Below, in pieces: positions 88 through 28,814 of a stretch of DNA of 28,828 nt. Source of the DNA: a virus; the IMG/VR virus record IMGVR_UViG_3300003321_000207, positions 1-28,828 of that record; one strand, given 5' to 3'. The notes beneath the pieces are model-generated. The model saw nothing but the letters and a program-made list of their open reading frames with translations. It was not told the origin of the DNA and did no database searches. The stretch's first letter is position 1. Each line of letters starts with the position of its first letter. The translations under genes were made by a program, and so were the position numbers.

Positions 88-483
88 ATGATCCCCAAAG
101 ACCCCAAGCCTGAGAACAGGCCCCCAAAGAAGCACAAGCTGACCCCAGAAATGGAGGCAGCGCAGTGGAAGCCCGGACAATCTGGGAATCCAGGCGGCAG
201 ACCCAAGAAAAAGCCTGTTACGGATGCCTATGCTCGCTTGATGAGCAACCCAGCAGAAGCTGACAAGATGGCCAGAGCGTTACTGGACCAGGCTTTAGCG
301 GGAAACGTGCAGGCGGCCAAGGAGCTGCGCGAAGGTATAGAGGGAAAAGCCATGCAGGCGATCCGCATGGACGGAGAGTTGGGCCTTACCAGCATGGAGG
401 AACGTAAGCAGCGGATGGTTGAGTTGCTTAGAAAGGCTGCAAGCAGAATCGAAAGCTCGCCGATTGGGGATCAATCCCAGTGA
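88..483 (+). CDS. DUF5681-domain protein, probable small-terminase-like packaging protein
   Basis: The 131-residue protein has a basic N-terminus followed by the DUF5681 signature KPGQSGNPGGRPK (about residues 29-41) and a helical C-terminal part. DUF5681 proteins are usually found directly upstream of phage large terminases, as here, so a DNA-recognition role in packaging is inferred from family context; it has not been shown. The stop overlaps the start of the next gene (GTGA at 480-483), which suggests translational coupling. The ATG at 88 is the first good start in the frame. Confidence 0.8.
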   Translation: MIPKDPKPENRPPKKHKLTPEMEAAQWKPGQSGNPGGRPKKKPVTDAYARLMSNPAEADKMARALLDQALAGNVQAAKELREGIEGKAMQAIRMDGELGLTSMEERKQRMVELLRKAASRIESSPIGDQSQ

Positions 484-1319
484 GCGCAGTCGCCGAGATC
501 CTCAAGGAATTCTCGCCTGACATGCTCCCAGTGCTTATTTCTCAGTTAGACGAGGAAGAGCAGGGCGAGTTTCTAAGGCTGATTGAGGAGGAGGACCACG
601 AGTGCATAGTAGCGCGGTGCTCAGAGCGGGTGGTTGCTCACGACCGTGGCCCGATGTACTGGCTGCGTACCTTCACCAAAACCGAAAACTACCACTGGGA
701 GAAGCAGGGACTTCCGCCAAAGGCACCGTTTCCACATAAGCCGTATCCCAAGGAGACGCTGGTCGCATATGGCATCCCTGAAGAAAAGCTGGACTGGGAC
801 TACCTTGACTGGCTGATGAGCTTCCTTCTTGAGTCCTACGAGTCCGGTAAGCCTCTGAATATTCCCAAGACGCGGGAGATGATAACGAGCTGGCTGGTGG
901 TGGGTTACATAACCTGGTCATGCCAGTTTTTTCAGAACGTGCAGGCGGTCGGACAGTCGGAGAAGGATGACAAAGCTAAGGGCTTAATCAAGTACTCCAA
1001 CATCCTGTACGAAAATCAGCCAGCATGGTTGAAAGCTAGATTCCCTCTGAGACGTGGAGAGGCTGGGACGCTGCACTCAATCGAGTGGGCGCATGGATCA
1101 AGTTTTACTGGAGTGCCTCAAGGGGAAAGACAGACTGCCAGCCACCACCCTACGATCTACTTCAACGACGAATCGGCTCATCAACCGGGATGGAAGGCTA
1201 CCGTCGATATCGTAAAGCCGGTCGCCAAGCAGATTATCTCTGTGAGTTCGGCAGCGTTTTCAGACTTTGGAATTGCGTGTGATCCGCATGAAGGAGCAAC
1301 AACCGATGGCAATCAATGA
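480..1319 (+). CDS. Large terminase, ATPase half (split gene)
   Basis: The 279-residue protein holds the ATPase domain of a phage large terminase (TerL), the motor that pumps DNA through the portal. A deviant Walker A of the TerL type (IPKTREMITSW) starts at about residue 128. A Walker B with catalytic Glu (TIYFNDES) lies at about 225-232, with D230 and E231. A motif III-like SSAA follows at about 256-259. The protein then ends some 20 residues later without the RNase H-like nuclease domain found in intact TerL proteins. That nuclease is encoded separately at 2521-3546. The GTG start at 480 overlaps the preceding stop. The last residues (from about 264 on) are probably not original TerL sequence, because the next gene already starts at 1306. 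Confidence 0.82.
   Translation: MSAVAEILKEFSPDMLPVLISQLDEEEQGEFLRLIEEEDHECIVARCSERVVAHDRGPMYWLRTFTKTENYHWEKQGLPPKAPFPHKPYPKETLVAYGIPEEKLDWDYLDWLMSFLLESYESGKPLNIPKTREMITSWLVVGYITWSCQFFQNVQAVGQSEKDDKAKGLIKYSNILYENQPAWLKARFPLRRGEAGTLHSIEWAHGSSFTGVPQGERQTASHHPTIYFNDESAHQPGWKATVDIVKPVAKQIISVSSAAFSDFGIACDPHEGATTDGNQ
1265..1273 (+). repeat. 9-nt direct repeat CTTTGGAAT flanking the terminase interruption (second copy 2510-2518)
   Basis: CTTTGGAAT occurs at the point where the ATPase half of the terminase runs out (1265-1273) and again at 2510-2518, just before the ATG of the nuclease half. The copies bracket the 1.2-kb intervening block. Exact recombination between them would remove 1245 nt. That would join the upstream frame to the frame of the small gene 2202-2528, which meets a stop, so simple loop-out does not restore the terminase. 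The repeat may be a relic of insertion or chance. Confidence 0.4.
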
Positions 1320-1533
1320 CATGCAGCAAGACAGCGATGCTCAGGAATACGGTGGCGATCAAGGGGATGAGAACGACTCTGGCTACGAAGAGTGCGAACG
1401 GAGAATCAATGCGCTGGCCAGTTGGGCCCAATCTGTCGGAGCAAAGTTAGGTATTCCGTTCAGCGATGGTGGGCAGGACGACGATCCTCTAAAAGCGGCA
1501 ATTGCTGGAACGAAAGGAGCGCTTGGAAGCTAG
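1306..1533 (+). CDS. Hypothetical small acidic protein
   Basis: About 75 residues, rich in Asp and Glu in the first 30, then a short segment with Trp and Gly, ending in a Gly/Ala/Leu-rich tail. No family is recognised. The start at 1306 is chosen because AAGGAG (1291-1296) lies 9 nt upstream; an earlier in-frame ATG at 1288 has no such site. The start overlaps the end of the terminase ATPase gene. It is the first gene of the block that separates the terminase halves. Confidence 0.55.
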   Translation: MAINDMQQDSDAQEYGGDQGDENDSGYEECERRINALASWAQSVGAKLGIPFSDGGQDDDPLKAAIAGTKGALGS

Positions 1534-1988
1534 GTGGCGCTATCCAATTACGAGTACGTTAAGCGGTGGCGAAGTCTCAATAAGGACAAAGTGGCGGAGC
1601 AATCTAACGCCGCAGAGAGCAGCTATACGCCTATAAGAAAAAGTGGCGGCAGGCGAATTTGAAGGAACAGAGAAAAAAGGAGGCCGCTTACGCTAGGAAA
1701 AGGCGCAATGACGTAGAAGCCCAACGTGTTAGATGCCAACGGTTCAGATTAAAGCGCGTCGCCAAACAAGAAGAAGTGGCAGGCCGAAAACGGCCGTCCG
1801 AATGTGAACTATGCAGATGCAAAGCTAGGACTGTCTTCGACCACTGCCACTCCAGCGGTAAGTTCCGGGGATGGTTGTGCGATAGATGTAACAGGACTCT
1901 TGGAAGCGTCAAGGACGACGTTTCTATCCTATTGCTAATGGTCGAATATCTCACCCGTGGAGGAACACATGGCAAAGCTAAGCGCTAG
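1534..1988 (+). pseudogene. Endonuclease VII-type HNH nuclease, frameshifted
   Basis: The C-terminal part (frame of 1659-1988) is a recombination endonuclease VII-type domain: a CxxC pair (CELC), then DHCH, a G..RG step, CDRCN and LGSVKDD. These are the zinc ligands and catalytic His/Asn pattern of this His-Me/HNH family, often seen as freestanding mobile endonucleases in phages. The N-terminal part is in another frame, starting with GTG at 1534 right after the preceding stop. It reads ALSNYEYVKRWRSLNKDKVAEQ and would run smoothly into RRREQLYAYKKKWRQANL if one base were restored near 1600-1610. The upstream frame stops at 1660-1662; the downstream frame is closed by TAA at 1605-1607. No slippery heptamer is visible, so a one-base deletion is more likely than programmed frameshifting. 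A truncated but domain-complete protein could still start at TTG 1659 (109 aa). Confidence 0.65.
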
Positions 1989-2199
1989 CCAAAGAAACTC
2001 ATTGCCATCACAGGATTTCGCTTTACCTGGAAGGAAGTATCCAATCGAAAACCCTAGTCACGCCAGAAATGCTCTGGCCCGAGTGTCTCAGCACGGTACG
2101 CCGGCGGAGAAGGCGGCTGTGCGGGCCAAGGTTCGCAAGAAGTTTCCAGGAATCGGCAAGCCCAAGAAGAACTCCACTCCATTCATCGGGGAGATGTAG
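1969..2199 (+). CDS. Small basic phage protein with HARNALARVSQ motif
   Basis: The 76-residue basic protein has the segment LPSQDFALPGRKYPI followed by HARNALARVSQHG and a basic helix ending near KKFPG. This LP-x-FA-x-RKYPI / HARNALARV pattern is familiar from small phage proteins and from short domains near phage head genes (similar to DUF6582-type segments). Its function is not known to me. The start at 1969 follows GGAGG (1959-1963) by 5 nt, in preference to the in-frame GTG at 1957. It overlaps the end of the endonuclease gene. Confidence 0.65.
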   Translation: MAKLSASQRNSLPSQDFALPGRKYPIENPSHARNALARVSQHGTPAEKAAVRAKVRKKFPGIGKPKKNSTPFIGEM

Positions 2200-2201
2200 C
2201 C

Positions 2202-2528
2202 ATGCAGAAAAGCAAATCCGGTAATCACCCGACGCGCAATCTTGGCATCTACGCGCACGCTCCAAAAGGCCGCCATCGGGAGAAGAAAGTTCCGAAGCCT
2301 ACCGATGGCAACTACAAGCCAAAGGGAGATTTACGTGAGAACCTACATTCCACGCAGAAATCAGTGGCTGGCGTGGACATGGGGCGCTCTGACGTAAAGA
2401 GCGAAAGCATCGGTCCGGACCTCGGCCCTCTCACTGGAACCCCCAAGGCCTACACGGTAAAGCCGCCTAAACGGCAGATGAAGAACAGCAAGCCCAGCGG
2501 CACCCCGTTCTTTGGAATCAATGCCTGA
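2202..2528 (+). CDS. Hypothetical basic protein upstream of the terminase nuclease half
   Basis: The 108-residue protein is Lys/Pro/Gly rich with no predicted membrane segment and little secondary structure. The start ATG at 2202 follows GGGGAG (2188-2193) by 8 nt. Its last codons (FFGINA then stop) contain the second copy of the 9-nt repeat and overlap the ATG of the terminase nuclease gene by 8 nt, so the two are probably translationally coupled. No family recognised; possibly a minor virion or nucleic-acid-binding protein, judging only by its charge. Confidence 0.55.
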   Translation: MQKSKSGNHPTRNLGIYAHAPKGRHREKKVPKPTDGNYKPKGDLRENLHSTQKSVAGVDMGRSDVKSESIGPDLGPLTGTPKAYTVKPPKRQMKNSKPSGTPFFGINA

Positions 2529-3546
2529 GATCACCAATGTTTTCCCCGGCATCCGTCGCTGGGAAAACTCACACGGTGCCATCGTAGTGGAAGTGCTCTA
2601 CAAGGCAGACCCGCACAAAGCCCTCGGCCCAGAGGAATTTATCCCTGAGCAGAACATGATGATGAGCCCATGGCTTCTCTCTGAGTACAGGGGCATGCAG
2701 GACAAGGCTCTCTTCCGGCAAGAATACCTGATTGACTTTGAGGCTACTCAGGGCGCTCGCGTGTTCTACATGGAGGATGAAGCAACGCTCGTCCGGTCGA
2801 AGGATGTTGGACCTATTCCGCATGAATGGACGCGCTGGTATGGCCTTGATCCTCATCCGAGGGTTCCACACGCTCATCTCTGGTGCGCGGTTGATCCATA
2901 CGGTGACCGATGGTATTACAGGGAGTTCTGGCCGTCAAAGATGTACGGCAAGCGAGGAGCGGTTCCTGAAGACGATACGCGGATGAAGATCAAGGAGCAC
3001 GCCACCATCGTTCACTATCTTGAGTCAGCAGACAATCCGGAGAACTGTGGCAAGCAGGAGAGAGTCTACCGGCGCGTGATTGACTACGCTGCGCGAGCGT
3101 TTGGCCAAGGCACGGTCGATGATGAACCGCAGCTCAACTTTCAGGAGCGGTATGAAAAGGTGTCTCTGGAGATAGGCAGAGAACACGGCGACAACTGGCG
3201 CATGACGTTCGTGGATTGCGTTAAAGACCACGCTGCTGGCATTGAACTGGTCAATGACGGACTCAAGCCGCTATGGGCAGAAGGTCCGAAGGGCGAGATC
3301 AGAAGGTCACGGATTCACATCCTCGAAGACAAGTGCCCGGAACTTGTATTGCAGATCAAGACGAATCGCTATCCGCAGCTCAGTCCGGTGCAGGCGGCCG
3401 TACGCGATCCGTTATCTGAGCCGTTGCAGTTGCGTCGCCACATGACAGACAACCTGCGATACATCGAGATGGACAGGCCCAGATTCATTCCAAAGCTATC
3501 GATGAAAGATGATTTTGAGCCCATCCATGCGGGCGTGAACTACTGA
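2521..3546 (+). CDS. Large terminase, nuclease half (split gene)
   Basis: About 341 residues. The N-terminus (HGAIVVEVLYKADPHK) and the following FRQEYLIDFEA match the region that in an intact TerL comes straight after ATPase motif III. Next comes an RNase H-like nuclease start, YGLDPHPRVPHAHLW, with the first acidic residue in GLDPH, followed by typical strand segments (DRWYYREFWPS). No Walker motifs are present, so this protein depends on the ATPase half at 480-1319. ATG 2521 is preferred; an in-frame TTG lies at 2512. The two halves together (roughly 600 residues) are about the size of one TerL. The stop overlaps the portal start (TGATG). Confidence 0.82.
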   Translation: MPEITNVFPGIRRWENSHGAIVVEVLYKADPHKALGPEEFIPEQNMMMSPWLLSEYRGMQDKALFRQEYLIDFEATQGARVFYMEDEATLVRSKDVGPIPHEWTRWYGLDPHPRVPHAHLWCAVDPYGDRWYYREFWPSKMYGKRGAVPEDDTRMKIKEHATIVHYLESADNPENCGKQERVYRRVIDYAARAFGQGTVDDEPQLNFQERYEKVSLEIGREHGDNWRMTFVDCVKDHAAGIELVNDGLKPLWAEGPKGEIRRSRIHILEDKCPELVLQIKTNRYPQLSPVQAAVRDPLSEPLQLRRHMTDNLRYIEMDRPRFIPKLSMKDDFEPIHAGVNY

Positions 3547-7823: not shown

Positions 7824-7833
7824 AGAGTTAGTC

Positions 7834-7861
7834 CGGAAAGCCAACCACAATGGCAAATCCG
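7834..7861 (+). promoter_or_regulatory. Hairpin enclosing the capsid start codon
   Basis: CGGA pairs with TCCG and, across a small A-rich internal loop, GCC pairs with GGC. The ATG at 7850 lies at the edge of the loop AACCACAAT. The capsid gene has no strong ribosome site apart from GGAAA in this stem, so opening of the hairpin could tune translation. The loop starts with AACCAC, like the element at 15-28. Confidence 0.35.
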
Positions 7862-9043
7862 CAGAGCTTTAATACGTTTGTCACGGAAGCATCGAACGTC
7901 CGTGATGTCGCGGAGGACATGCTGTATCTCGATGAGAACCGCACCGTCCTCTACACCCTTACCAATGCGGCCAAGCGCAAGAAGAACGCGACTGCCCCCC
8001 GCATTGAGTGGTTTGAAGAAAATGACCTTGGCATGATCGGTACCGTCTCGAACGGTACGACTGCCTATTCGTCCGTCGCTACCGGGATCTTCGTTACCGA
8101 CGTGACCTTGTTCGGCGTAAATGATGTCGTGCAAGTGGCGCGTGCGGTCGGCACCAACTCGCAGCAGGGAGAGTTCTTGCTGGTGAGCGCCGTTTCCGGT
8201 ACCACCAATGGAACGCTGACTGTATCCCGCGGCTTTGCAGGTTCAACCGCAGACACCGTTGGCGCAACCAACACGCTGAAGATTCTCGGTGTGGCCACTA
8301 CAGAAAACGGCTCCATCGACAATCCCCGCGTTCCTGCAAGGGTCAACAAGACCTCCGGCTGCCAGATTTTTGAGTGGCCGATTCAGGTAACGAGAACCGG
8401 AGCTGCCACGAAAGTCTACACGGCACCGCAGGGCGACCGTGCTGACAAGCAGAGTCTCGGCATGCGCCGCCAGAAGTTGGAAATCGAGAATGCCGGACTG
8501 TTCGGTCGGTTCTCCGAGACGCTGTCTTCCCCTGGTTCGCGTTGGACATCGATGGGTGTGCGGTCCATCATCGCGACCAACGTGACCGATGCTGGTGGCA
8601 CCCTCACCTACCAGACGTTCCTCCCGTTCAGCCGTACGGCTTTCCGGTATGGAGCCTCTGAAAAGCTGCTGATGGCTGGCCCGATTGTGAAGGAAGGGCT
8701 GGACTTCACCGCTGGCAACAAGATTCTGGCGCAGGCTGGAGCCAGCGTTCATGGCGTGCAGTTGAAGCGCTACCTGACGCCCAACGGCACCTGGAATCTT
8801 GCAACCAACTACAACATGGACGCCAACTCGGACTTGGGCGATGAGGCCATTGGAGTTGATCTGGCCTCAGTCGAGTACTGCCCGCTGGTCAACAACGGTC
8901 AGAACCTGGATACCAAGATTTTCCAGGACTACGACCCGACCAACCCCAAGCTGATTAAGGACCTGGTGTTCACGCAGGCAGGCTGGAGGATTCGCCATGA
9001 GGCGCGTCACGCCCGCCTGTACGACGTATCGTCTTACGCCTGA
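7850..9043 (+). CDS. Major capsid protein, DUF5309 / SU10 type (HK97 fold)
   Basis: The 397-residue protein lies straight after the scaffold gene. It matches the DUF5309 family of SU10-like major capsid proteins: an N-terminal helix and E-loop-like region (AKRKKNATAPRIEWFEE), a beta-rich insertion with TNGTLTVSRGFAGSTAD (about residues 120-140), a conserved middle helix QSLGMRRQKLEIE (about 200-212), and a C-terminal segment ending in GWRIRHEARHARLYDVSSY. Family members form the icosahedral or elongated shell of podoviruses such as SU10. The assignment is from recalled family pattern plus context. The start codon ATG 7850 is preceded by only a weak ribosome site. Confidence 0.88.
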   Translation: MANPQSFNTFVTEASNVRDVAEDMLYLDENRTVLYTLTNAAKRKKNATAPRIEWFEENDLGMIGTVSNGTTAYSSVATGIFVTDVTLFGVNDVVQVARAVGTNSQQGEFLLVSAVSGTTNGTLTVSRGFAGSTADTVGATNTLKILGVATTENGSIDNPRVPARVNKTSGCQIFEWPIQVTRTGAATKVYTAPQGDRADKQSLGMRRQKLEIENAGLFGRFSETLSSPGSRWTSMGVRSIIATNVTDAGGTLTYQTFLPFSRTAFRYGASEKLLMAGPIVKEGLDFTAGNKILAQAGASVHGVQLKRYLTPNGTWNLATNYNMDANSDLGDEAIGVDLASVEYCPLVNNGQNLDTKIFQDYDPTNPKLIKDLVFTQAGWRIRHEARHARLYDVSSYA

Positions 9044-9658: not shown

Positions 9659-10165
9659 GTGGCAATCTGCGGAGGCTGTGGGGCAGAAACTCGGCGAATC
9701 ACCGTCACCATGACCTCTGGCGGTGGCAAGAAATTCCTTGCCGATGGAGAGCGCAAGGAAATCTGCCCATCGTGTGCGCCAGAGCAGTTCCAAGAGCCAT
9801 TCAGCGGACCCGCTGACCGTCGTCTGTGGCACGAGCATGAGGCTGCTCCGCAGCTCTACCACCGTCGTCCAGATGGATTCCTTGAGTTAAACGACTCTCC
9901 CAAGGCCGACCTGATGGCCGCATGGGAGCAGGATCCGGATGAGGAAGTCAGAGCCAAGGCTGCAGCGAGAAAGCGGGCGCAGAGACGCACTCGCCCGCTT
10001 GAGTCATGGGAAATAGAGCAGGCGGATCGGGTCTGGCGGCCGATAGTTAAGCAGCAGGCAGATGACCTCCGCAAGCAGGCCGAAGGCGATGAACTCTACA
10101 CCCAGAACCTTATCGAGAAACTGATTCGAGATGAGCGAGACAAAGCCAAGCCAGCCATCAATTAA
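9659..10165 (+). CDS. Hypothetical zinc-ribbon protein
   Basis: 168 residues. Two CxxC pairs (ICGGCG near residue 4, ICPSCA near 37) frame a beta hairpin and form a plausible zinc ribbon. The rest is charged and helical with an Arg-rich stretch (ARKRAQRRTRP). The GTG start at 9659 is one base after the preceding stop. The end overlaps the glycosyltransferase gene by 35 nt. No function is assigned. Confidence 0.6.
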   Translation: MAICGGCGAETRRITVTMTSGGGKKFLADGERKEICPSCAPEQFQEPFSGPADRRLWHEHEAAPQLYHRRPDGFLELNDSPKADLMAAWEQDPDEEVRAKAAARKRAQRRTRPLESWEIEQADRVWRPIVKQQADDLRKQAEGDELYTQNLIEKLIRDERDKAKPAIN

Positions 10166-13269: not shown

Positions 13270-13308
13270 CACCTACCCACCTTCCAACATTAATCAGCGG
13301 AGACAAGC

Positions 13309-17608: not shown

Positions 17609-18329
17609 GCGCCCGTTGGCTGTTTTGCTGTTCTGCTCTCCGGCCTTCGCCCAGGTCGCGCCCACCATTGTGGCGACCAGCTCGACGACCTATAACGCCG
17701 GCGCGTCCAGCAAGTCTTCGGCATCGTTTACCTGGAATATTAACGACACTTTTGTCGCTGCCTGCGGCTCGCAAGCCCCGGACACGATCACCGTGCCCAC
17801 AACGACCGGGTCAGGGCTGTCGTTCACCTCCCAGCTGTTCAACACGGCGGTGAACACCAGCGGCACCAGGCTCTCGACTGCAGTCGCTACGGGGGCGAGC
17901 TCAGGCACAATCTCTGCCACCAACTCGTCCAGCGCGACCAATGACTGGGGCTGTACGTTCTGGCAGGTGCGCGGAAGCACCGGGATAGGTGCTGCCCCGG
18001 CTGAAAGTCATACCGCCTCGTTGACGGTGTCCATGACTCCGGTCGGGACGCACAGCACTGTGCTCTGGGCCGTGTTTGACTTCAACGCCGGAGCGGTTCA
18101 GACCATCACGCCGACTCCGACAGACACGGTCCAGGCCGCCCAGATTGCCGGGACCTACACCGTCTACGTGGCCGACCAGGTCGATTCAACGACCGCAACT
18201 TCTTGGGGAATCAGCGGGACGGGAACGGGGCCTTTCTCAATCGTCGCCATCGAGCTTAAGTCCGTCGTGACAGCCACCGCCACCATTCAGGGAAACCCGA
18301 CCGTGAGTGGCCAGATGGTACTGAAGTAA
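17598..18329 (+). CDS. Exported fiber-like protein with Sec signal peptide
   Basis: The 243-residue protein begins with a clear signal peptide, MTIKRPLAVLLFCSPAFAQ, cleavable after AFA. The mature part is a Ser/Thr-rich beta-sandwich-like chain without charged helices, with single Cys residues that could form a disulfide (ACGSQ; WGCTF). It resembles secreted adhesin or tail-tip proteins in composition only. It starts inside the end of the fiber gene (11-nt overlap). A Sec signal on a phage structural protein is unusual; alternatives are a lysogenic surface protein or a co-transferred bacterial secreted protein. Confidence 0.6.
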   Translation: MTIKRPLAVLLFCSPAFAQVAPTIVATSSTTYNAGASSKSSASFTWNINDTFVAACGSQAPDTITVPTTTGSGLSFTSQLFNTAVNTSGTRLSTAVATGASSGTISATNSSSATNDWGCTFWQVRGSTGIGAAPAESHTASLTVSMTPVGTHSTVLWAVFDFNAGAVQTITPTPTDTVQAAQIAGTYTVYVADQVDSTTATSWGISGTGTGPFSIVAIELKSVVTATATIQGNPTVSGQMVLK

Positions 18330-18341
18330 AGAACTTCACCA

Positions 18342-19043
18342 ATGACAAAATCTCAGATCATAAAGCTGGTTCAGGCGAGAACCGAAAACTCTTTGGTAGG
18401 CGTGGTGGACTTCGATGACCTGCTCAATGATGTAATCCAAGAACTCTGCGCCGAGTTCAGGTTCTGGTGGCTTAAGAAGCGGTTATCTTTCTCTACCGCA
18501 GCAGGCACAGCGACATACGATCTGTCTTCTATTGTCACTTCTCCGGCGGGAGCGGGGCCTTATGTGGATGAGATTACCGGAGTAGTGCTGATAGATTCAT
18601 CTGGCAATCCATGCAAGCTGGTTGCGATATTCGATGACTTGTCGATTGCATCGGCAGTGACAGATGCCACCACGGGCCAGCCCGGTTCCTACACCATAGA
18701 AACTAACGATCTGTCTCTGTTTCAGACACTGCGGCTGATGAAGATTCCCAATGGCATCTATACAGTTCATGTGTTCTTCTGGGCAATGCCTAACCCAGAC
18801 GCAGATGCAGACTCAAGCGATGAGATTACGGTAATTCCTGCAACCAAGCACCACATTCTTAAGACTGGACTAGAGAAAGAAATTCTCCGCATTAAGTACG
18901 GTGAGCAGGACCCCAAGTACGTTACTGCTCTCAATGAATACAACAAGAAGGTCGAAGCGGCCAAGGTAAGGCCTTCCTTTTCAGCCGAGCGTGAACTGTT
19001 CTTTGAAAATATGGACGGAGAGGCTATCCGGTCCACCCGATAG
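18342..19043 (+). CDS. Head-tail adaptor protein, SU10 type
   Basis: The 233-residue protein starts with the helix MTKSQIIKLVQARTEN. It has the pattern of podoviral adaptors: helices with FDDLLNDVIQELCAEFRFWWL (about 23-43), a beta part with TATYDLSS, then the C-terminal helices HHILKTGLEKEILRIKYGE and VTALNEYNKKVEA. This matches the SU10 adaptor family, a ring of twelve between portal and nozzle. It lies right before the nozzle-like gene and fits the SU10-type capsid protein. The end is 5 nt before the next start. Confidence 0.75.
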   Translation: MTKSQIIKLVQARTENSLVGVVDFDDLLNDVIQELCAEFRFWWLKKRLSFSTAAGTATYDLSSIVTSPAGAGPYVDEITGVVLIDSSGNPCKLVAIFDDLSIASAVTDATTGQPGSYTIETNDLSLFQTLRLMKIPNGIYTVHVFFWAMPNPDADADSSDEITVIPATKHHILKTGLEKEILRIKYGEQDPKYVTALNEYNKKVEAAKVRPSFSAERELFFENMDGEAIRSTR

Positions 19044-19048
19044 ATACG

Positions 19049-21625
19049 ATGCCGCTATCAGTCTTGGAGCTGTTCAATTTCGGAGGCGTTGACTCGCGTA
19101 GCAACCCCCTGAATATGCCTCCAGGCAGAAGCCTGCGCACGAGGAATTGGGTTCCCAAGAACGGCGAAATGATGCAGTTGCGTTACGGATTCTCCACTGT
19201 GAGTTTGAGTGGAAGCGCGTCTATCGGTGCATACCATTCCCTGATTCCGTACACCTTCTACGACGACTCTGGGACTGAGACTCCCTACCTGGTGCTTGGA
19301 CAGGGAGAAGAACTTCGGGTGCTGAATATAGCGACTGGCTCCGTAAGCAAGCCCCCAGTGCGCGGGGCTGCTATTTCTTCTCCAGATGGATTTCAGTCGT
19401 ATCTTGCCAACGGGAAGATACACATCGGCAACGGTACAGACCAGAAATGGTTTGACGCAAACACGTTCAGGGACAATGGTATCCGAGCACTTACGGCAGC
19501 AGAAATAGCGAATGTGGTGCTTGGTTTTGGGGTGGTGGAACTGTCGGCCGCCCAAAATGCGTCAATAACTCTCACGCCAGCAGCGGGAGGCACGTTCTCG
19601 GCAACAACCGGAACGGGTCTGCTGTTCTATGTCAGCGAATTTGATACGCTGACAAACGAGCTCGGCCCAGCGACGATTTCCGCTGGGAGTGGCCGAATCA
19701 CACTCTCTGCCAATCAGAAAGTTACAGTTGGGTCCCTGCCTGACCTTAGTGCCGTCTCAGGCATGGCATTGGTGAAACTCGTCTCAAGGACACAGGACTC
19801 GCTGGCATCGGCCTATTTCTGCACCAACACGTCTACCGCGATTACGTCATGCTCGCGCAGTGGCACCACGCTTACTGTCATATCGGCAGCGCATGGACTG
19901 AGCAGTGGGGATATAGTATCCCTCTCTGGCACAATCAATTTCGATTCCATCTATAAGGTCACGGTGAGCGATGCAAACACCTTTACCGTGACGCTCTTTC
20001 AAGCAGTTGGACAGAACGCTACTGGTAGTAATACGACAGGCGGCACGTGTAAGCGCATCGTATCGGCAGCAGCGGCCACCGCTAGTGTAGACGTAACCTC
20101 TCCAGCGCAGGACATGACCATCGTGGCAAATGATGCAAACCGGGGACTGGCCGCATCGGACAGTTCGTTTACTGATCCCGGATACGCATTCTACGCAAGC
20201 ATCTACAATCCCGATGGCGGCGGCCATGTGGGCAATCGAATACAGATTGGGACCGGACGATTCGTGTTTACTGCTTCGGGAGACGCTGCAATCAGACGAC
20301 TTAACATGAGGATAACCGGACTTCCAGATTTGTCCGGTGTAGATTCTGAGTGGGTGTTGATGATTGGCCGCACAGGAGATGCCGCCCAGATTCCATATCC
20401 AGCCACAGATACTGCCGGCAATTTCTTCGCTACTGTGAGTGGCCAGACTGCGATCACCCTCACCACTCAAGGATCACTGTTTGGGACTGGCGAAATGCCA
20501 ACCAGAAATGGAGTCATACCGTCCGCTCTGGATATGTTCGCAGTGGTTGGCGACAGGATCTTTGGCGGCCAGACAGGAAGGCCCACGACCTACATGTCGG
20601 CCAGTGCTGCCGATGCGACGGCGGGGGACTTCGTAGGACGGCCGGAGCAGTCATGGGCTCCCGATGACATTGATACGTTTCCTACCGCCGAAGGCTTGCG
20701 TGGCATGTTTACCGAGGACCGCGGCGCATTTTATGCCACCAAGAATGATGGCGCGATTCTGGCCGATTTGGGCACGGGGTTCGCATGGCTAGGGCCATGG
20801 TACGGGGCGGGAATGGCCGGCAAGCGGTCTTGGTGCCAGACGCCATACGGACCATACTGGGTTACAGGGAACAAACAACTTGCGACCTTTGATGGTGGCT
20901 ACCCGGTGGCCGTCTCTGATGAGTATCAGGCGGCATTGTTATCAAGAATCGGGGATGCTCATCTCAGCGAGGTTGAATGCGCGTACATCGTTGATGTCGA
21001 TAAGGGCATTGACCAGCTTCTCATCAACTGCCGCGACTCAACCGGAAGTCCATTTCAGGTTATCCATGACTTCAAACTGAGAGATGCCAGAAGCCAATCC
21101 GGACAGGGCTATGAAAGCGTGTACTCCGCTCCGCTGTCGTCGCAGTTCACGATTGCTGCCGTCAGAGACGCTGCCGGAGCACTCAGGCTATGGGCTGGTG
21201 CGCAGAGCGGAAGCATCTACCAGTTGCACGACGGAGAGACGGATGGCGGAGCAGTCTACAGTGCGGATGCCATCTTCCTTATCAATGCAGGCCCCAATCG
21301 GCCTAGCGTCCCAGAGTTCCGTCTATATGGGGATCAAGGAATTGCTGTCTCCATTTCACGCAGACTCGATGCCTCTGTTGACCCTGCTGCCAGCGTTGCA
21401 TTTGTGCCTCTCCAGCAGGCGGCTGTAAGCGGGGAAGATGGAAATTCGTACTACGGATATCGTCTGGCAACGACTGAACTGAACAAAACATACATCCGCC
21501 TGCAACTTGATTCGCATGCCGCCGATGGGACGTTCGACCTTAACGATCCTCCGCATGTTCCCCTTGAGACATACGGGAAAATCTATCTTGCGCAGGGACT
21601 GGTGGGGACGCAGCGCGGAATATGA
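19049..21625 (+). CDS. Tail nozzle-like protein (beta-propeller)
   Basis: The 858-residue protein starts with NFGGVDSRSNPLNMPPGR and RNWVPKNGEMMQLRYGFS. This N-terminal pattern of NP, Gly-Arg, an RN-W-V step and G-x-L-x-R-x-G is typical of podoviral nozzle or stabilisation proteins (T7 gp12, P22 gp10 type). The bulk is beta-rich, with blade-like repeats. Residues 255-330 add a separate Ig-like or beta domain with SxSGTINFDSIYKVTVSD. It follows the adaptor gene as expected for a nozzle. The hexameric tube role is known for the family and inferred here. Confidence 0.7.
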   Translation: MPLSVLELFNFGGVDSRSNPLNMPPGRSLRTRNWVPKNGEMMQLRYGFSTVSLSGSASIGAYHSLIPYTFYDDSGTETPYLVLGQGEELRVLNIATGSVSKPPVRGAAISSPDGFQSYLANGKIHIGNGTDQKWFDANTFRDNGIRALTAAEIANVVLGFGVVELSAAQNASITLTPAAGGTFSATTGTGLLFYVSEFDTLTNELGPATISAGSGRITLSANQKVTVGSLPDLSAVSGMALVKLVSRTQDSLASAYFCTNTSTAITSCSRSGTTLTVISAAHGLSSGDIVSLSGTINFDSIYKVTVSDANTFTVTLFQAVGQNATGSNTTGGTCKRIVSAAAATASVDVTSPAQDMTIVANDANRGLAASDSSFTDPGYAFYASIYNPDGGGHVGNRIQIGTGRFVFTASGDAAIRRLNMRITGLPDLSGVDSEWVLMIGRTGDAAQIPYPATDTAGNFFATVSGQTAITLTTQGSLFGTGEMPTRNGVIPSALDMFAVVGDRIFGGQTGRPTTYMSASAADATAGDFVGRPEQSWAPDDIDTFPTAEGLRGMFTEDRGAFYATKNDGAILADLGTGFAWLGPWYGAGMAGKRSWCQTPYGPYWVTGNKQLATFDGGYPVAVSDEYQAALLSRIGDAHLSEVECAYIVDVDKGIDQLLINCRDSTGSPFQVIHDFKLRDARSQSGQGYESVYSAPLSSQFTIAAVRDAAGALRLWAGAQSGSIYQLHDGETDGGAVYSADAIFLINAGPNRPSVPEFRLYGDQGIAVSISRRLDASVDPAASVAFVPLQQAAVSGEDGNSYYGYRLATTELNKTYIRLQLDSHAADGTFDLNDPPHVPLETYGKIYLAQGLVGTQRGI

Positions 21626-22553: not shown

Positions 22554-22797
22554 GAAGCTCGGCTTCCCGAGCAGAAACCAATCGCTCACGTTCCACGTAT
22601 TCAAAAGGTTCGGCGGTAACGGTAAATCCAGAATGCTTCAGAACTATGACTGGGGTGACGGCGTAAGGAGATTTAATTTCACGCCAATCACCATGGCCGA
22701 TTTTGCGAAAAAACCTATTGTCCTCAGTCCATCGCTCTGTAACTGTGACGAAGCCCATGCCTAAGGAGTCTACCACTATGAAGATTGCCACTCGCAT
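22516..22797 (-). CDS. Possible antisense small protein
   Basis: A minus-strand frame of up to 93 codons fills the only gap (22554-22777) in this part of the + strand operon. Its middle has a protein-like composition (DNRFFRKIGHGDWREIKSP; EPFEYVERERLVSAREAELL, an amphipathic helix), while the + strand frames there are short. There is no convincing ribosome site; possible ATG starts are at 22797 and 22758. It overlaps the end of the GNAT-like gene. Real, decayed or coincidental: undecided. Confidence 0.28.
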   Translation of the reverse strand: MRVAIFIVVDSLGMGFVTVTERWTEDNRFFRKIGHGDWREIKSPYAVTPVIVLKHSGFTVTAEPFEYVERERLVSAREAELLTARPPRISQPE

Positions 22798-23431
22798 TGA
22801 ATTTCAAATGACGGACTCTGGGCTGATAGAGCTCTCACGCGAAGAGTTTGAATACTCTGGCCCTGTAGCTCTCTGTGGCGGAGGCCCTGACCCAATCCAG
22901 AAGCAACAAGAGGCTGCACAGGCCAAACTGACAAATGAGGAGGCCGATGCCGCTCAACGTGCGGAGCAATTTAAGGAGGACCAGCAGGCGAAGGTCAATC
23001 CCTTCTACGGGAACCTGATGGAAAATGGACCGGATTACACGAATGATGCTCTCGACTACGAGAGCGGCGTCAACGCTCGGGCGTACGCACCAGCAAAGGC
23101 TGCATTGATGCGAAGTCTTGGGACTGAAACCGGTCTACCGTCTGGCTACCGTGACCAGGCCATCAGCGACTTCGATGAGCAGCGTGCCCAAGGGTATGAC
23201 AATGGCATCATGGGCATTCTGGCCGACAAGCAGGCTGCAAAAGAACGGGGAGCAGCCGGCCTGTTAGGGCAGGCGCAACTCGCCGATCCGGCAGCTCTCT
23301 ACGGCGGGGCGACTCAGGGAACACAGACAATATTCAATGCTCCGCGCCGTCCGGGATTCGCCGGCACCCTCGGTGCGCTGATTGGGGCAGGTGCGCAAGT
23401 GGGGAGCGCATATATCAACAAGCCATCCTGA
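22778..23431 (+). CDS. Internal virion-type protein (hypothetical)
   Basis: About 217 residues from ATG 22778, chosen because AAGGAG (22763-22768) is 9 nt upstream; the frame is open further upstream but without a site. The protein has an N-terminal beta segment, a helical Gln/Ala/Glu-rich part (KQQEAAQAKLTNEEADAAQR) and a Gly/Ala-rich hydrophobic C-terminus (FAGTLGALIGAGAQVGSAYI). Amphipathic helices with a Gly/Ala membrane-friendly end are typical of podoviral internal virion (ejection) proteins. It lies before two larger proteins of that sort. Confidence 0.6.
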   Translation: MKIATRIEFQMTDSGLIELSREEFEYSGPVALCGGGPDPIQKQQEAAQAKLTNEEADAAQRAEQFKEDQQAKVNPFYGNLMENGPDYTNDALDYESGVNARAYAPAKAALMRSLGTETGLPSGYRDQAISDFDEQRAQGYDNGIMGILADKQAAKERGAAGLLGQAQLADPAALYGGATQGTQTIFNAPRRPGFAGTLGALIGAGAQVGSAYINKPS

Positions 23432-23453: not shown

Positions 23454-25037
23454 ATGGCCCTTTCGATCAAAGTAGATACTGGCGAAGTTCCCTCAATTCT
23501 GAAGATCCTTGGCATCGGCGGCATGCCTGCGCAGGCCAACGATACTGGCGGTGTATCTGGGAATCCTCCCGCAGCAGGTAGTCCTGCACCGCAATCCTCA
23601 CCGTCTGCCACAGCACCCTCTTCTGCGGATTCATCGTCGACTCCAAAACCTCCGACAAAACTGCTGCGCCTGCAGCAGACACTCGGGGCCGTCGCAGGTG
23701 GCGATTATCCGGCTCCTGACTTGAGCACTGCGGCGCCCCCTCCGTCCGTGCCCCCTCCAGGCTTAGCCTCGAGTATGGCCGCTGACGCGAGCACGCCGAG
23801 AAAGGCTACATTCGCAGAACGCCACCCTGGATTCATCAAGCTACTGACCGGAGCCACACAGTTTGCTCAGGATGCGGGGCCGGGCATCGGAGCCCGAACA
23901 TTTGGAGAGGGATTCCAGACAGCAGCCGAACAGCCGGCTCTGCGGCAGCAACGAGCTCTGGCCATACAGCAAGGACAAGCTCAATTGGCGCACACCAAGG
24001 CCCAGACCCAGCAGCTACAGACGCAGGTTACATTGCCCAACGGCCCCACGGTTCCCTTGGTCCTGGCGCAGAAGCTCTATCCGACACTGTTAACAGAGCA
24101 AGGCAAGAACTCCCGCAATGAAGCGACCATCAACAGCCGGGAATCAATTGCGGCCGATAAGAATGCGCTGAACCTGCGCAGGCAGGGACTGAAGCCGAAT
24201 CCCGATGATCCCAACGGTGCACCTGTACCGCTTACCTATGAGGAACTGTCGCCGTCAGAACAGGCGCACTACGATCTGCTGCAATCTCAACAGGACGCGG
24301 CTCAGGCAAGGGCTGATTTGGATAAAGCGAAGAACGATCCAACTTCGGCAGCGTACAAAGCTGCTTACGGTCGGCTGCAGGTGGCTCAGCAAAACGCGAA
24401 TACGGCGGTCAAGCGTCTCGGACTGGATCAGGAAAAGTTCAAGGCTGACTATTTCGGAACGGACAAGGACGGGAATCCATTGCCGGGAACTCCGACCGAT
24501 GAGAACGGCAATCCCATCGGGCCAAAGGTAGCGAATGCCGGCAAGCCATCAGCGGACCGGATAAGAAGGGGCGATCTGGCGGCAAATGCCATTCACAATC
24601 TAAACAATATCGCAGAGATCGTGAACCGCAGGCCAGAATTGTTTGGAACGCCGGGAGGCCTCTTAACTTCGGTGCAGGACATGATCGGTTCTGACGATGC
24701 CGATATTCGTTCACTAGGCGTGGAGATTCACAACTATGCTCTCGCAAGTAACGGAGCCCATGGAGTACGGTCACAGCAAGCCATCCAGAAAACGGAGGAT
24801 GAGCTTCTGCGCAACTTCCGTGCTGGCCAGCATGGAATTATCGGAGGAATAGCAGCGGCCAAGGGCAGCCTCCAAGACTTCGTGAATGACCAGCAGCTCG
24901 GCAATCGCGCGCGCCCCGGAGCAACAACTACGCAACCCCAGAAACCGGCCGCGGCCAAGGGCAAGCTAACGCCACAGCAGCAGCGCGATCAGAAGCTCGG
25001 AGTGGTGTACATCAGTGGACAACGTCCTCAGGAATGA
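23454..25037 (+). CDS. Probable internal virion/ejection protein
   Basis: About 527 residues from ATG 23454, which has AAGGA (23440-23444) 9 nt upstream. Residues 1-110 are low-complexity and rich in Pro/Ser/Ala. Residues 115-260 are Gln/Ala-rich helices (LRQQRALAIQQGQAQLAHTK), 275-335 a coiled coil, and 380-490 a helical domain (RRGDLAANAIHNLNNIAEIV; DIRSLGVEIHNYAL). The end is again Gln/Pro-rich. No enzyme motif is visible. Size, composition and place fit a core or ejection protein; the precise family is not recognised. The stop falls in a hairpin shared with the convergent lipoprotein gene. Confidence 0.6.
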   Translation: MALSIKVDTGEVPSILKILGIGGMPAQANDTGGVSGNPPAAGSPAPQSSPSATAPSSADSSSTPKPPTKLLRLQQTLGAVAGGDYPAPDLSTAAPPPSVPPPGLASSMAADASTPRKATFAERHPGFIKLLTGATQFAQDAGPGIGARTFGEGFQTAAEQPALRQQRALAIQQGQAQLAHTKAQTQQLQTQVTLPNGPTVPLVLAQKLYPTLLTEQGKNSRNEATINSRESIAADKNALNLRRQGLKPNPDDPNGAPVPLTYEELSPSEQAHYDLLQSQQDAAQARADLDKAKNDPTSAAYKAAYGRLQVAQQNANTAVKRLGLDQEKFKADYFGTDKDGNPLPGTPTDENGNPIGPKVANAGKPSADRIRRGDLAANAIHNLNNIAEIVNRRPELFGTPGGLLTSVQDMIGSDDADIRSLGVEIHNYALASNGAHGVRSQQAIQKTEDELLRNFRAGQHGIIGGIAAAKGSLQDFVNDQQLGNRARPGATTTQPQKPAAAKGKLTPQQQRDQKLGVVYISGQRPQE

Positions 25038-25063
25038 TCCCTGTCACTTTGTGCCAGGGTCAT
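25034..25063. terminator. Hairpin between convergent genes (possible bidirectional terminator)
   Basis: ATGA-T-CCCTG pairs with CAGGGTCAT: nine base pairs with one bulged T and an 11-nt loop. It covers the stop of the + strand gene ending at 25037 and the stop of the minus-strand gene ending at 25044. There is no long U-tract on either side, so it is a weak terminator candidate, supported by its position between convergent genes. Confidence 0.4.
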
Positions 25064-25349
25064 TGGTGGAAGGGTAGTCCCTATAGAGGTCTACGCATTC
25101 CGGAGAGCCTTCGCCATCCACTCGTGCAGAGCTATGCGGATCAACAACCCAGTCCCATGTCCTGCATATCTGCCCCGTCTGCTTGTCGAAAGCTAAGTCC
25201 GTCTGCCTGTTAACCAATACGAATCTGTCGGCTGGAACGGTAATGGCTCGCGTCTGTTGTGGATTTGGAGCAGTAGCAGCAGGAGTTGAACTGGAGCACG
25301 ACGTAGCCACAATGGGCAATACAAGAATGCAGACCGCGATGTTACGCAA
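25044..25349 (-). CDS. Small lipoprotein (moron candidate)
   Basis: The 101-residue protein starts at TTG 25349, with AGGA 6 nt upstream. The N-terminus RNIAVCILVLPIVATSC is a lipoprotein signal peptide with lipobox ATSC; Cys18 would be lipidated. The mature part has a Ser/Thr/Pro linker, then RFVLVNRQTDLAFDKQTGQI followed by CRTWDWV, and a second Cys (SPECVDLY) that could pair with the first. Segments with a DxxTGxxCRTW pattern recur in small phage and bacterial lipoproteins. It begins 8 nt after the membrane-protein gene, so the two form an operon against the direction of the virion genes. Possible roles: lysogenic surface protein, superinfection exclusion, or outer-membrane spanin. Confidence 0.6.
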   Translation of the reverse strand: MRNIAVCILVLPIVATSCSSSTPAATAPNPQQTRAITVPADRFVLVNRQTDLAFDKQTGQICRTWDWVVDPHSSARVDGEGSPECVDLYRDYPSTNDPGTK

Positions 25350-25357
25350 GAGGATTC

Positions 25358-25639
25358 CTATGCCGCCCGGTTCTTCGCTGCGGTGAAGGTAGCAGCACGC
25401 AAGAACTGGCGCACAGCCCAGAGAGCTACTCCGGGAACAAACGGAAGACATCCGACCATCAGACGCTCGCCATAGTAAGGAGAAGACAAGTCAAAAAAAA
25501 CCGCGAAAGGCAACGCGTACCAAAAGAAGCTCTGTCCCCACGTAAACGGAGCACACACCAGCGGAACAATCAAGTAAGAACCGATGGCGTACCAAGGAAG
25601 TGAGCGGATGGCCTTGCTGAACTCTTCTTTGCCGTTCAA
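25358..25639 (-). CDS. Small integral membrane protein (moron or holin candidate)
   Basis: The 93-residue protein starts at TTG 25639, with AAAGG 9 nt upstream on the minus strand. It has three hydrophobic segments at about residues 17-34 (AIGSYLIVPLVCAPFTWG), 36-50 (FFWYALPFAVFFDL) and 60-78 (LMVGCLPFVPGVALWAV), and a basic C-terminus. Size and topology fit a holin or a small exclusion protein, but no family is recognised. It is followed by the lipoprotein gene. Confidence 0.55.
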   Translation of the reverse strand: MNGKEEFSKAIRSLPWYAIGSYLIVPLVCAPFTWGQSFFWYALPFAVFFDLSSPYYGERLMVGCLPFVPGVALWAVRQFLRAATFTAAKNRAA

Positions 25640-25673: not shown

Positions 25674-28600
25674 ATGTCAACTACCCCCATGATTCCAATG
25701 TTTTCACCGGAAGGCAATCTGGCCAAGGTCCCGGGCGAAAACTATGCGAATGCTCTGCAGCAGGGTTTCACCCCGGCAACAGTGATGACTTCCCCAGAGG
25801 GGAAGGATGCCTACGTTCCCCACGAAAAACTCTCGGATGCCCTGAAGGCGGGATTCAAAGTAGGGCCAGCCAGCCAACAGGCAATAGGGGAGGCGCCGGC
25901 TAAAGGCTACAGCAGCAACGCTCCTGGCTCATCCTTCGCATTGGGAGTTGCGTCAGGACTGGGCATTCCCGAGAGTGAACAGCCAGTCAGCGATCTGGCG
26001 GCAAGCATCCTCGAACCCCAGAACGCAGTTGCATCCTCATCGGCTCCGAAACCAATTCCAGAGTTGCAGCCAGGAGATCAAGAAGCGTACGACAAGGCGC
26101 TCGCTAAGCGTAGCTTGTTGCAGAGGATGTTTGGCTCAAACGGCGACCTTGATCCAGCAATAGCGAAGAGGGTGCAGGCCCACGATGCGGCCATGCTTGA
26201 GGATGCATACAGAAATTATGCTCCCGGTATTCCTGTGGTTTCTCCTGCCATTGCCGCCGCTGGCAACGAGGCAGACAAATCGGTCGATGCCTTCAGGGGA
26301 GGTCGTCCATATGAAGGAATCGTGCGCGCCGCCGGGGCAGCCGTTCCTCTGGTGGGACCGGCAGCAGTAGAAGCCGGAAATGAGATTGGCCAAGGGGCCG
26401 AAGACAAAAATGTTGACGAGATGGCGCACGGCGCTGGAAACGCCACGGGGATCATCGGCGGACTCCTGCTCGGAACAAAGAAAGGGCAGGCGCTTGCAGA
26501 CGCAGCCTTAGAGAAAACGGTCAGGCCAGCGGCCCGTGTCCTACAAGGAGCCGCTCCCCGCGCTCTTTCCGGTGCTCTTGGTGGCGGCGCGAAAGCCATG
26601 GCAAAGCGTCCCATCCCGCAACAGACAGCCGCTGGCGTGGCGTCCAATGCAGAAGTGGATGCATATGCAAAAGCCCATGGGATTGATCTTCTGCCAGGAC
26701 AGGCTACTGGAGCGAAGGGCCTCCAGACTTTGCAGGCGATAGGCGAGCGCGCAGTTGTCGCGCCGGGTGTCCTACCCGACGTCCTGGATCAGCAGAAAGC
26801 CAACTTCGGTGGCTTGGTGGATGATTTCAGGGGACGGGTAGCAAAGGGAGCCATCAACGACACCGAGTCGGCAGGAACTAGCCTGCAGAGCCAGGCACGA
26901 AATGCTTTGGAGAAGCTCAAGTCGTCAGCACAGGGGGATTACGCAGCATTTCAGCAGGCCACCGGCGACATCCCTGTTGACCTGTCGGAAGTGAAGGAAA
27001 AATACGGCCAGCAGCTTGCTGACCAAGCCGAAGCGCTCAAGAACGTCCCGTCAAAATACTCCGCTCCGATCCGCAACGTTCTGAACAAGCTTTCGTCAAT
27101 CGAGGCGGGAGGAGAAATAGATCCAAAGCTTCGCGAAGCATTCGACCAGGCGGTGAAGGATTACAACCTGGGGCCTGAAGCGCAGGCCAGCTTACGGGAA
27201 AGTTTGGGGATTCCAGATTCCAATACCGCGCAGGTGCGCATGAGCACGGCGCAGCAACTCCGCTCCGCCTATTTGGATATCGCGCGTGACTACTCAGGCA
27301 ACGTTCCTAAATCTGTGCAGAGAATCGCATCTCAGGCTGCCAAGGACATTGATGCAGCCATGGGAAAGGCTGCGGATAGCGTAGGAGCTACCGACCAATG
27401 GCGCCAAGCCAACGCCAAATGGAAGCAACTGCAGGAGACATTCAACAATCCAGACCATCCGCTCTATAAAATCTTGCAGGCGAGCGATCCATCGCAGGTT
27501 CCCGGTAAAGTACTCGGCAAGGGAACCTCTGGAGGAAGCCCACAAACCATCCGCCAGTTGAAGCAGGCCGGGATTGATCTGGCACCGCTCAAGCACGAGG
27601 TGGTGCAGCAGATTGCCGACAAGAACTTTGCACTCACCAATGGCGGTCGTGGACTGGCTGGATATACGACGCCTTTCCTGCAGGAGCTGTTCACGCCGGC
27701 AGAACTGGATGAACTCACAAAGATGGGGAGGGTGGGCCGCGCCATTCGGTTCGAGATGAATCCATCCGGAACGTCCAATGTGCAGCAAGGAGAAAGACAA
27801 ATTCACGGCATTATTGCCAGGTCATCGGCTGCCGTAGTCGGCCCCGCGGCATCGAGGTTAACCACAAGCTCCGGCCTCGCGCGGGCGGCGCGAGGAGGAG
27901 TTCTGCCTGGAGAGGCCAGCGCATCGAGGCCTTTTCTCGGCTTAACCGGGTTAAGGGGTTCAGTAGGTGGCTCAGGGCCATCGCCTTCAGGCGGAAATGC
28001 CCCTTCTGGCCCTTCCGGAGGAGGTCCTGCTACTAGAGGCCCATCGTTTCTCAGGAGTGCCCCTGAGAGGCGGCAAAACGTTGATTTAAGGGCTGCTGTG
28101 GATGCCATGACTCCGGAGGAACGGGAAGCCGCTATCTTTACCAACGACAAGACTGGTCTTCCAAATGGCAGGGCCTTCCAAATGGCCCAATCTCAACTTG
28201 AGACAAGTCATCCGCATGTAGGATTTGCGGATGTGGATGACTTCAAGAGCTTCAACACGAAGCTGGGCCACACAAGCGTCAATTCCACGGTGTTCCCGGC
28301 CATTGGAGACGCAATTAAGCAGGCGATTGACGCAGAAAACGGGGCTGTCCATGCCTTCCACGTTCACGGCGATGAGTTCCAGTTTCTTGGATCAGATCCA
28401 GATGCAATCGGCCGCGTTGTTGACCGCGTAAATTCGCAGCTAAAGAATGCTGAATTTAGGGTTCAAAATCCGGATGGCAGTGTTATAACTGTGAAAGGAG
28501 CAGGGCTGTCCTATGGCACAGGAAAGACGCTCGCAGAAGCAAATGCCGCCGAGAAGCTCAGTAAGCAAACGCGCAAAGAAGCCGGCCTCCGCGTCGGGGA

Positions 28601-28814
28601 GCGCGACCAGGCACAAAATACAGCTCCCGGCAGCGCTCAAGTCGCTCCCTCCGGGCAGCAAAATACTGTCGGTGACAATGCCCAACGGCAAGGTGTACAA
28701 CCACCCGTCACTGAAGCCAGTGACCGACCGCGTTCAATAGCGGACATCCTCGGCAATCGGTCCCAAGAAAAGATCGACCTCAACGCTCCTAAGAGCAAGC
28801 GCAGGGAGCTTTGA
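25674..28814 (+). CDS. Large internal virion-type protein with C-terminal GGDEF-like domain
   Basis: 1046 residues. The N-terminus has two copies of a MxSPEGxxxxVPxExxxxALxxGF motif (about residues 8-33 and 39-64). A Gly/Ala-rich, membrane-prone part follows (about 210-310), then a long helical core (about 340-700) of ejection-protein type, and a Gly/Ser/Pro linker (about 760-800). The last domain (about 812-975) is a GGDEF fold: DKTGLPNGRAF, ADVDDFKSFN (D853, N861), GHTSVN (865-870), HGDEF (898-902) and GLSYGTGKTLAEANAAEKLS. Relative to active diguanylate cyclases, the first Gly of GGDEF is His898 and the Asp of GHxxGD is Asn870, so substrate choice or activity may be altered. The ATG at 25674 starts just after the divergent moron pair. 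If the protein is ejected, this domain reaches the host cytoplasm with the DNA. Confidence 0.75.
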   Translation: MSTTPMIPMFSPEGNLAKVPGENYANALQQGFTPATVMTSPEGKDAYVPHEKLSDALKAGFKVGPASQQAIGEAPAKGYSSNAPGSSFALGVASGLGIPESEQPVSDLAASILEPQNAVASSSAPKPIPELQPGDQEAYDKALAKRSLLQRMFGSNGDLDPAIAKRVQAHDAAMLEDAYRNYAPGIPVVSPAIAAAGNEADKSVDAFRGGRPYEGIVRAAGAAVPLVGPAAVEAGNEIGQGAEDKNVDEMAHGAGNATGIIGGLLLGTKKGQALADAALEKTVRPAARVLQGAAPRALSGALGGGAKAMAKRPIPQQTAAGVASNAEVDAYAKAHGIDLLPGQATGAKGLQTLQAIGERAVVAPGVLPDVLDQQKANFGGLVDDFRGRVAKGAINDTESAGTSLQSQARNALEKLKSSAQGDYAAFQQATGDIPVDLSEVKEKYGQQLADQAEALKNVPSKYSAPIRNVLNKLSSIEAGGEIDPKLREAFDQAVKDYNLGPEAQASLRESLGIPDSNTAQVRMSTAQQLRSAYLDIARDYSGNVPKSVQRIASQAAKDIDAAMGKAADSVGATDQWRQANAKWKQLQETFNNPDHPLYKILQASDPSQVPGKVLGKGTSGGSPQTIRQLKQAGIDLAPLKHEVVQQIADKNFALTNGGRGLAGYTTPFLQELFTPAELDELTKMGRVGRAIRFEMNPSGTSNVQQGERQIHGIIARSSAAVVGPAASRLTTSSGLARAARGGVLPGEASASRPFLGLTGLRGSVGGSGPSPSGGNAPSGPSGGGPATRGPSFLRSAPERRQNVDLRAAVDAMTPEEREAAIFTNDKTGLPNGRAFQMAQSQLETSHPHVGFADVDDFKSFNTKLGHTSVNSTVFPAIGDAIKQAIDAENGAVHAFHVHGDEFQFLGSDPDAIGRVVDRVNSQLKNAEFRVQNPDGSVITVKGAGLSYGTGKTLAEANAAEKLSKQTRKEAGLRVGERDQAQNTAPGSAQVAPSGQQNTVGDNAQRQGVQPPVTEASDRPRSIADILGNRSQEKIDLNAPKSKRREL

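Follow-up and report, generated by a model that had tools for sequence, protein, structure and literature searches.

Large proteins of phages and plasmids that are predicted to enter the cell together with DNA have been found to carry GGDEF domains. Such polyvalent proteins, with GGDEF and RelA/SpoT domains among their components, were reported in 2017, and interference with host nucleotide signals was proposed for them (Iyer et al., PMC5512222). In the literature searched, no test of the activity or delivery of a phage GGDEF domain, as proposed in 2017, was found, and neither was an activity, virion proteomics or a host phenotype for any polyvalent-type member. A second form of the domain stands alone in proteins of about 156 amino acids (aa), including YuA gp44, MP1412_43 and CN1 gp42 (Yuavirus, Vojvodinavirus), which are encoded away from the virion genes. 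For Bordetella phages, a role of GGDEF in biofilm after lysogeny has been suggested without a genetic test (PMC8471281).

Studies of bacterial enzymes offer further points of comparison. The first Gly of GGDEF is dispensable in some of them: the Vibrio protein VCA0965, with AGDEF, makes c-di-GMP, and engineering HGDEF into it gives an active enzyme (PMC3974145). The position of PleD Asp344 sets base choice, Ser being found in the Hypr cGAMP synthetases and Asp in diguanylate cyclases, and the Ser that leads to cGAMP goes with GGDEF rather than GGEEF (PMC6456294). More distantly, mCpol/OptS of the Panoptes system has a related palm-type cyclase fold and makes cyclic dinucleotides in the conflict with phages (PMC12657218), although it is a bacterial defence enzyme nearly devoid of the GGDEF motif, whereas the subject of this report is a phage GGDEF protein.

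Here we describe P0001, the product of the last gene in a virus record of 28,828 bases, the whole of which constitutes the window analysed. We consider it probable that P0001 ends in a retained and probably active cyclic-dinucleotide synthetase, belonging to a phage-specific GGDEF clade and carried by a DNA-delivered protein at an ejection position. GGDEF domains in phage proteins predicted to enter the host are already published; our additions are a better-defined phage clade and a cassette of RelA/SpoT-like, 2H and GGDEF domains. Relative to the proteins described in 2017 (PMC5512222), P0001 is shorter and has a single recognisable domain, and the [S/K/H]GDEF pattern, the missing inhibitory site and the recurrent base-contact Asn have been worked out in the present analysis. 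If the domain is both active and delivered, the host second-messenger pool would be rewritten before any phage gene is expressed. The clade comprises about 30 sequences, including the 156-aa versions of laboratory-grown Pseudomonas phages, and makes activity, product and effects on CBASS-type defences directly testable.

The GGDEF domain of P0001

The P0001 open reading frame (ORF) starts with ATG and closes with an in-frame TGA, 14 bases short of the end of the record (Table 1). Its N-terminal 790-800 aa or so have no relatives in phages, in viral contigs or in the proteins that carry related GGDEF domains; GGDEF is the only domain recognised in P0001, and a search of a known-defence library gave no match. 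The Gly/Ser/Pro-rich segment ahead of the domain bears out the flexible linker described in the initial annotation, which had placed the domain at 28086-28620, very close to the span found here.

Profile searches identify the domain and point to its divergence. Pfam PF00990 (GGDEF) scores 28.2 bits on the whole protein and 30.9 bits on its C-terminal part, against a gathering cut-off of 23.8 bits (E 2.1e-9, against its own record), while the NCBIfam domain model TIGR00254 gives a weak 18.5 bits, below its cut-off of 37.4, so that the domain must be regarded as divergent. A Pfam multicopper oxidase match overlapping the domain (15.6-18.8 bits, cut-off 20.4) was dismissed. The top matches of a PDB sequence search are GGDEF proteins (3icl, E 9e-4; WspR, E 0.017), and the named significant matches among viral models are either GGDEF or diguanylate cyclase proteins, with that of Bordetella phage CN1 the nearest, or Gp350 of phage G.

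An AlphaFold model of 196 residues, computed from a 34-row alignment, has a mean pLDDT of 91.0 and a pTM of 0.83, and places GDEF in the turn of a beta-hairpin between strands at model positions 99-105 and 108-113. Foldseek returned 91 PDB chains at E<=0.001, and the best 50 of the 91, with E-values from 1.3e-8 to 5e-7 and a probability of 1.00, are all entries for GGDEF domains or diguanylate cyclases; T. maritima, SiaD, WspR and PleD entries are among the fold matches. The TM-scores shown, by shorter normalisation, range from 0.45 to 0.68 (mostly 0.5-0.68 for single-domain targets), moderate values that probably reflect, in part, the helical extension at the N-terminus and the floppy tail. 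The C-terminal domain of P0001 is a genuine member of the GGDEF superfamily: the Pfam match above cut-off, the GGDEF fold modelled at pLDDT 91 and the GGDEF entries among the PDB matches confirm what the initial annotation had recognised and had proposed to check by structure modelling.

Table 1. Positions of P0001, its domain and residues, and other genes in the window (residue counts over 30 distinct phage members)
Feature	Position	Strand	Basis or conservation
Terminase large subunit, two ORFs (480-1319, 2512-3546)	480..3546	+	Homologous to L091, L052 and L053 terminase genes
Major capsid protein, SU10 type	7850..9043	+	Pfam PF17236, 90.7 bits
858-aa protein, tentative tail nozzle; counterpart of L091 883-aa gene	19049..21625	+	Gene order, weak hhalign match
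242-aa protein, tentative ejection-module; counterpart of L091 193-aa gene	22703..23431	+	Gene order only
Gene before P0001, tentative ejection-module; like L091 542-aa gene	23457..25037	+	Gene order, size
P0001, 1046 aa: first ~735 aa with no known domain, then linker, GGDEF domain and a basic tail of low complexity	25674..28814	+
Gly/Ser/Pro-rich linker, about aa 735-797	27876..28064	+	Sequence
GGDEF domain, about aa 802-973	28077..28592	+	Pfam PF00990, family HMM (802-973), AlphaFold, PDB fold matches
Asp853, metal-binding Asp (PleD Asp327 position)	28230..28232	+	Invariant, 30/30
Asn861, guanine contact (PleD Asn335 position)	28254..28256	+	Invariant, 30/30
Asn870, base specificity (PleD Asp344 / Hypr Ser348 position)	28281..28283	+	Asn 7/30, Asp 23/30
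HGDEF signature, aa 898-902	28365..28379	+	G-D-E-F invariant, 30/30
Lys964, phosphate contact (PleD Lys442 position)	28563..28565	+	Lys 29/30

A phage clade and its active site

Relatives gathered from viral contigs and phages amount to about 30 distinct sequences. In a maximum-likelihood tree, in which the deeper order within the clade is undecided, the bootstrap had yet to converge completely and some of the bacterial rows sit on long branches, the phage rows split from 15 bacterial-type rows with support 95/99, and the window groups with L091 and L095 with support 99/100. A further close relative, L098, matches at 42% identity over 210 aa, and the solo proteins of YuA, MP1412 and CN1 fall in the same clade, with about 27-31% domain identity, SGDEF and no inhibitory site. 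The P0001 domain shows the pattern of this group (a helix before TGLPN, xGDEF, no inhibitory site and a short C-terminal end) and belongs to a phage-specific GGDEF clade. Recent capture of an ordinary host diguanylate cyclase gene by the window phage was rejected as extremely improbable, because the tree sets the domain within the phage clade, beside L091 and L095 and away from the bacterial rows, and because the phage pattern is common to it, even though GGDEF proteins are abundant in bacteria and bacterial-type ones are carried by the viral-collection records L066, L070, L072 and L073. When genome contigs were searched for close relatives, the GGDEF proteins obtained were of bacterial type and not of the phage clade, and the single plasmid match inspected was also bacterial-type; a terminase-based search found no further genomes of the window's phage lineage.

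The roles of individual residues are those of PleD, which we take to apply at the corresponding P0001 positions, and conservation was tallied over 30 distinct phage sequences, row L043 being excluded from the counts. The canonical metal Asp, guanine Asn and phosphate Lys are all present in P0001 (Asp853, Asn861, Lys858, Lys964), Lys858 also being Lys in 29 of 30 members. The invariance of the metal Asp, Asn861 and GDEF, together with the near-invariance of the two lysines, argues for sustained selection on the catalytic site, and decay of the domain was rejected on these grounds; random loss of metal-binding residues, which the initial annotation had named as a pattern that would speak against it, is not seen, the metal Asp being retained in all 30.

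The residue numbering given earlier (Asp853, Asn861, Asn870, His898, Asp-Glu-Phe 900-902) was right, and the two altered sites pointed out there are real: the first Gly is His898, so that P0001 has HGDEF in place of GG[D/E]EF, and the Asp of PleD position 344 is Asn870. Two more substitutions were found, His896 at the place of a canonical Arg (the same Arg-to-His change, two residues before the signature, occurs in 26 of 30) and Thr862 for the Asp of 'ND', in a region that forms part of the nucleotide pocket, as does Asn870. Across the 30 phage members the first signature position is Ser in 12, Lys in 12, Gly in 3, His in 2 and Gln in 1, and the central position is D throughout. Since the closest relatives, L091, L095 and L098, have Asp at position 870 and the motif SGDEF, the window's own lineage is the most likely origin of both Asn870 and His898.

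An RxxD inhibitory site (I-site) upstream of the signature is common in diguanylate cyclases, though not universal. It is absent from the P0001 domain and from all 31 members checked, so that the c-di-GMP sensing entertained in the initial annotation is unlikely to proceed through such a site. P0001 shares with PleD, WspR, DgcZ and SiaD the fold, the metal Asp, Lys, Asn, GDEF and the phosphate Lys; unlike them, it has His for the first Gly, Asn for Asp344, no RxxD, no sensory input domain and, apparently, no final strand. The changed first Gly and Asp344, the missing I-site and the low TIGR00254 score weaken its membership among the canonical diguanylate cyclases, but do not speak against its working in a similar way.

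The two altered sites carry different weight. With Gly rare at the first position in the clade and HGDEF active in VCA0965 (PMC3974145), His898 is no argument for lost activity or altered specificity; the active cyclases VCA0965 (AGDEF) and ECA3270 (SGDEF) likewise have the first Gly replaced, although these are bacterial proteins with other partner domains. Asn870, in contrast, recurs in the phage clade (7/30) and occupies the very residue that separates Hypr enzymes from diguanylate cyclases, so the altered specificity suggested earlier for both sites is a fair hypothesis for this one, and a plausible idea as judged from sequence. The Hypr enzymes GacA and Bd0367 also combine a changed base-contact position with D in GGDEF (PMC6456294), but have Ser or Thr there where P0001 has Asn. 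The default product would be c-di-GMP, and a mixed or adenine-containing product owing to Asn870 is possible; the replacement of Asp344 by Asn and of the 'ND' Asp by Thr may also mean that GTP specificity or activity has been lost in P0001.

An alternative is a catalytically dead domain that binds either a nucleotide or another protein, for instance as a sponge for host signals. We regard this as rather unlikely: the noncanonical His898 and Asn870, Thr862 and the TIGR00254 score below cut-off all fit it, as does the frequent conversion of degenerate GGDEF domains into receptors (reviewed in PMC3974145), but the whole clade keeps the metal site and the catalytic Asp/Glu unchanged, an RxxD site at which c-di-GMP could be bound is missing, and HGDEF can be active.

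Large and solo proteins that carry the domain

Most clade relatives lie inside proteins of 1,400-4,500 aa. In Pfam searches, L003 contains SLT transglycosylase, InPase, helicase and LPD1 domains, and in L098 GGDEF is joined to an SLT transglycosylase at the N-terminus and to an N6-methylase/SNF2 pair of the DarB type, so that both share a combination of transglycosylase with DarB-type methylase/helicase. A 2H phosphoesterase was found in L011, L012, L087 and L091, and LPD22, LPD5, RadC, ART-PolyVal and sigma-70 region 4 in other relatives. HMMs built here detected 2H immediately before GGDEF in six proteins and InPase in four; in total, 11 relatives have a 2H or pyrophosphatase domain. On this domain content the large relatives fit, as far as sequence can tell, the definition of polyvalent proteins given in 2017 (Iyer et al., PMC5512222): at least two disparate effector domains are present in L091, L095, L098 and others, whereas P0001 has only the one.

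In three of the six proteins with adjoining 2H and GGDEF, RelA/SpoT-like, 2H and GGDEF domains follow one another: L012 (640-1125 aa), L020 (653-1137 aa) and L095 (582-1110 aa). Pfam gives the RelA/SpoT domain a weak score (24.8 bits against a cut-off of 27), and the row may represent a nucleotide-signalling cassette within polyvalent proteins. One could extend this to the xGDEF clade as a whole, as early-entry cyclases whose base choice has drifted and which, with the 2H and RelA/SpoT-like cassette, would make cGAMP-like or mixed cyclic dinucleotides that serve cyclic-dinucleotide defences as decoys or antagonise them; we consider this improbable.

The initial annotation had suggested a search of related phages for the same fusion. 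The domain indeed recurs in large multi-domain proteins in most relatives, but it is solo in the YuA-type phages. Because these members also lie outside the virion module, delivery with DNA does not extend to the entire clade. They differ from P0001, too, in standing beside an antirestriction gene: the solo GGDEF gene adjoins one in L004, L005 and L096 (MP1412, YuA and CN1), which is KlcA in MP1412. This neighbour hints at a counter-defence role.

Gene order and probable ejection

The P0001 gene comes last in a record that also contains the terminase, a capsid protein of SU10 type and the virion module, a setting expected of polyvalent proteins. The sizes of the proteins preceding it (858, 242 and 551 aa) match those in L091 (883, 193 and 542 aa). 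Between the neighbouring ejection-type genes of the window and L091, iterated HMM searches found no similarity, and profile comparison found it, weakly, only for the 858-aa gene, whose collinear hhalign match to the 883-aa protein (E 0.018) is the best pair and exceeds the mismatched-pair controls. In L091, L052 and L053 the terminase genes lie downstream of the polyvalent gene. Gene position and order, together with the domain content of relatives, make it likely that P0001 is ejected with the DNA; with an N-terminal part of about 800 aa that has no relatives, an ejection function for P0001 itself rests on position.

A cyclase that is expressed late in infection and acts then or during assembly, rather than arriving with the genome, would be in keeping with the small YuA-type members outside the virion module and beside an antirestriction gene, and with the lack of a recognisable ejection domain in the N-terminal part of P0001. 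We judge it unlikely, given that P0001 closes the virion module and that the close relative L098 couples the domain to its SLT transglycosylase and methylase/SNF2 pair, which are functions suited to entry.

Under the favored reading, a synthetase delivered with DNA, P0001 would be the last protein of the virion module of a short-tailed phage, at the position held in related phages by large ejected polyvalent proteins, and would be packaged in the virion and enter the cell together with the DNA. By forming oligomers, the ejection protein could pair two GGDEF domains, as cyclases require, and the paired domains would make a cyclic dinucleotide, most likely c-di-GMP, from host GTP. Its product would presumably not inhibit the enzyme, and a pulse of this kind might, during the first minutes after infection, perturb host nucleotide signalling or a defence based on nucleotides.

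Several other features of the window were observed. Its two terminase ORFs are separated by about 1.2 kb containing an endonuclease VII-type HNH ORF (1659-1988, PF02945, 54.9 bits); the terminase of L091, L052 and L053 is likewise split into two ORFs, which are directly adjacent in L091 and L052. Just ahead of P0001, among the virion genes, lies a minus-strand ORF (25044-25451) with a lipoprotein-like signal (ILVLPIVATSC), and in L091 the equivalent place is taken by a minus-strand ORF of 136 aa (7549-7959). A tRNA-like gene at 6048-6109 scores 43.9 bits with Rfam and was missed by ARAGORN. Finally, positions 10131-14298, midway through the virion module, hold genes for glycosyltransferase 2, for a radical SAM protein that also matches B12-binding weakly, and for a nucleotide-sugar epimerase; the radical SAM protein has a homologue in L081, encoded on the other strand (17419-18846).
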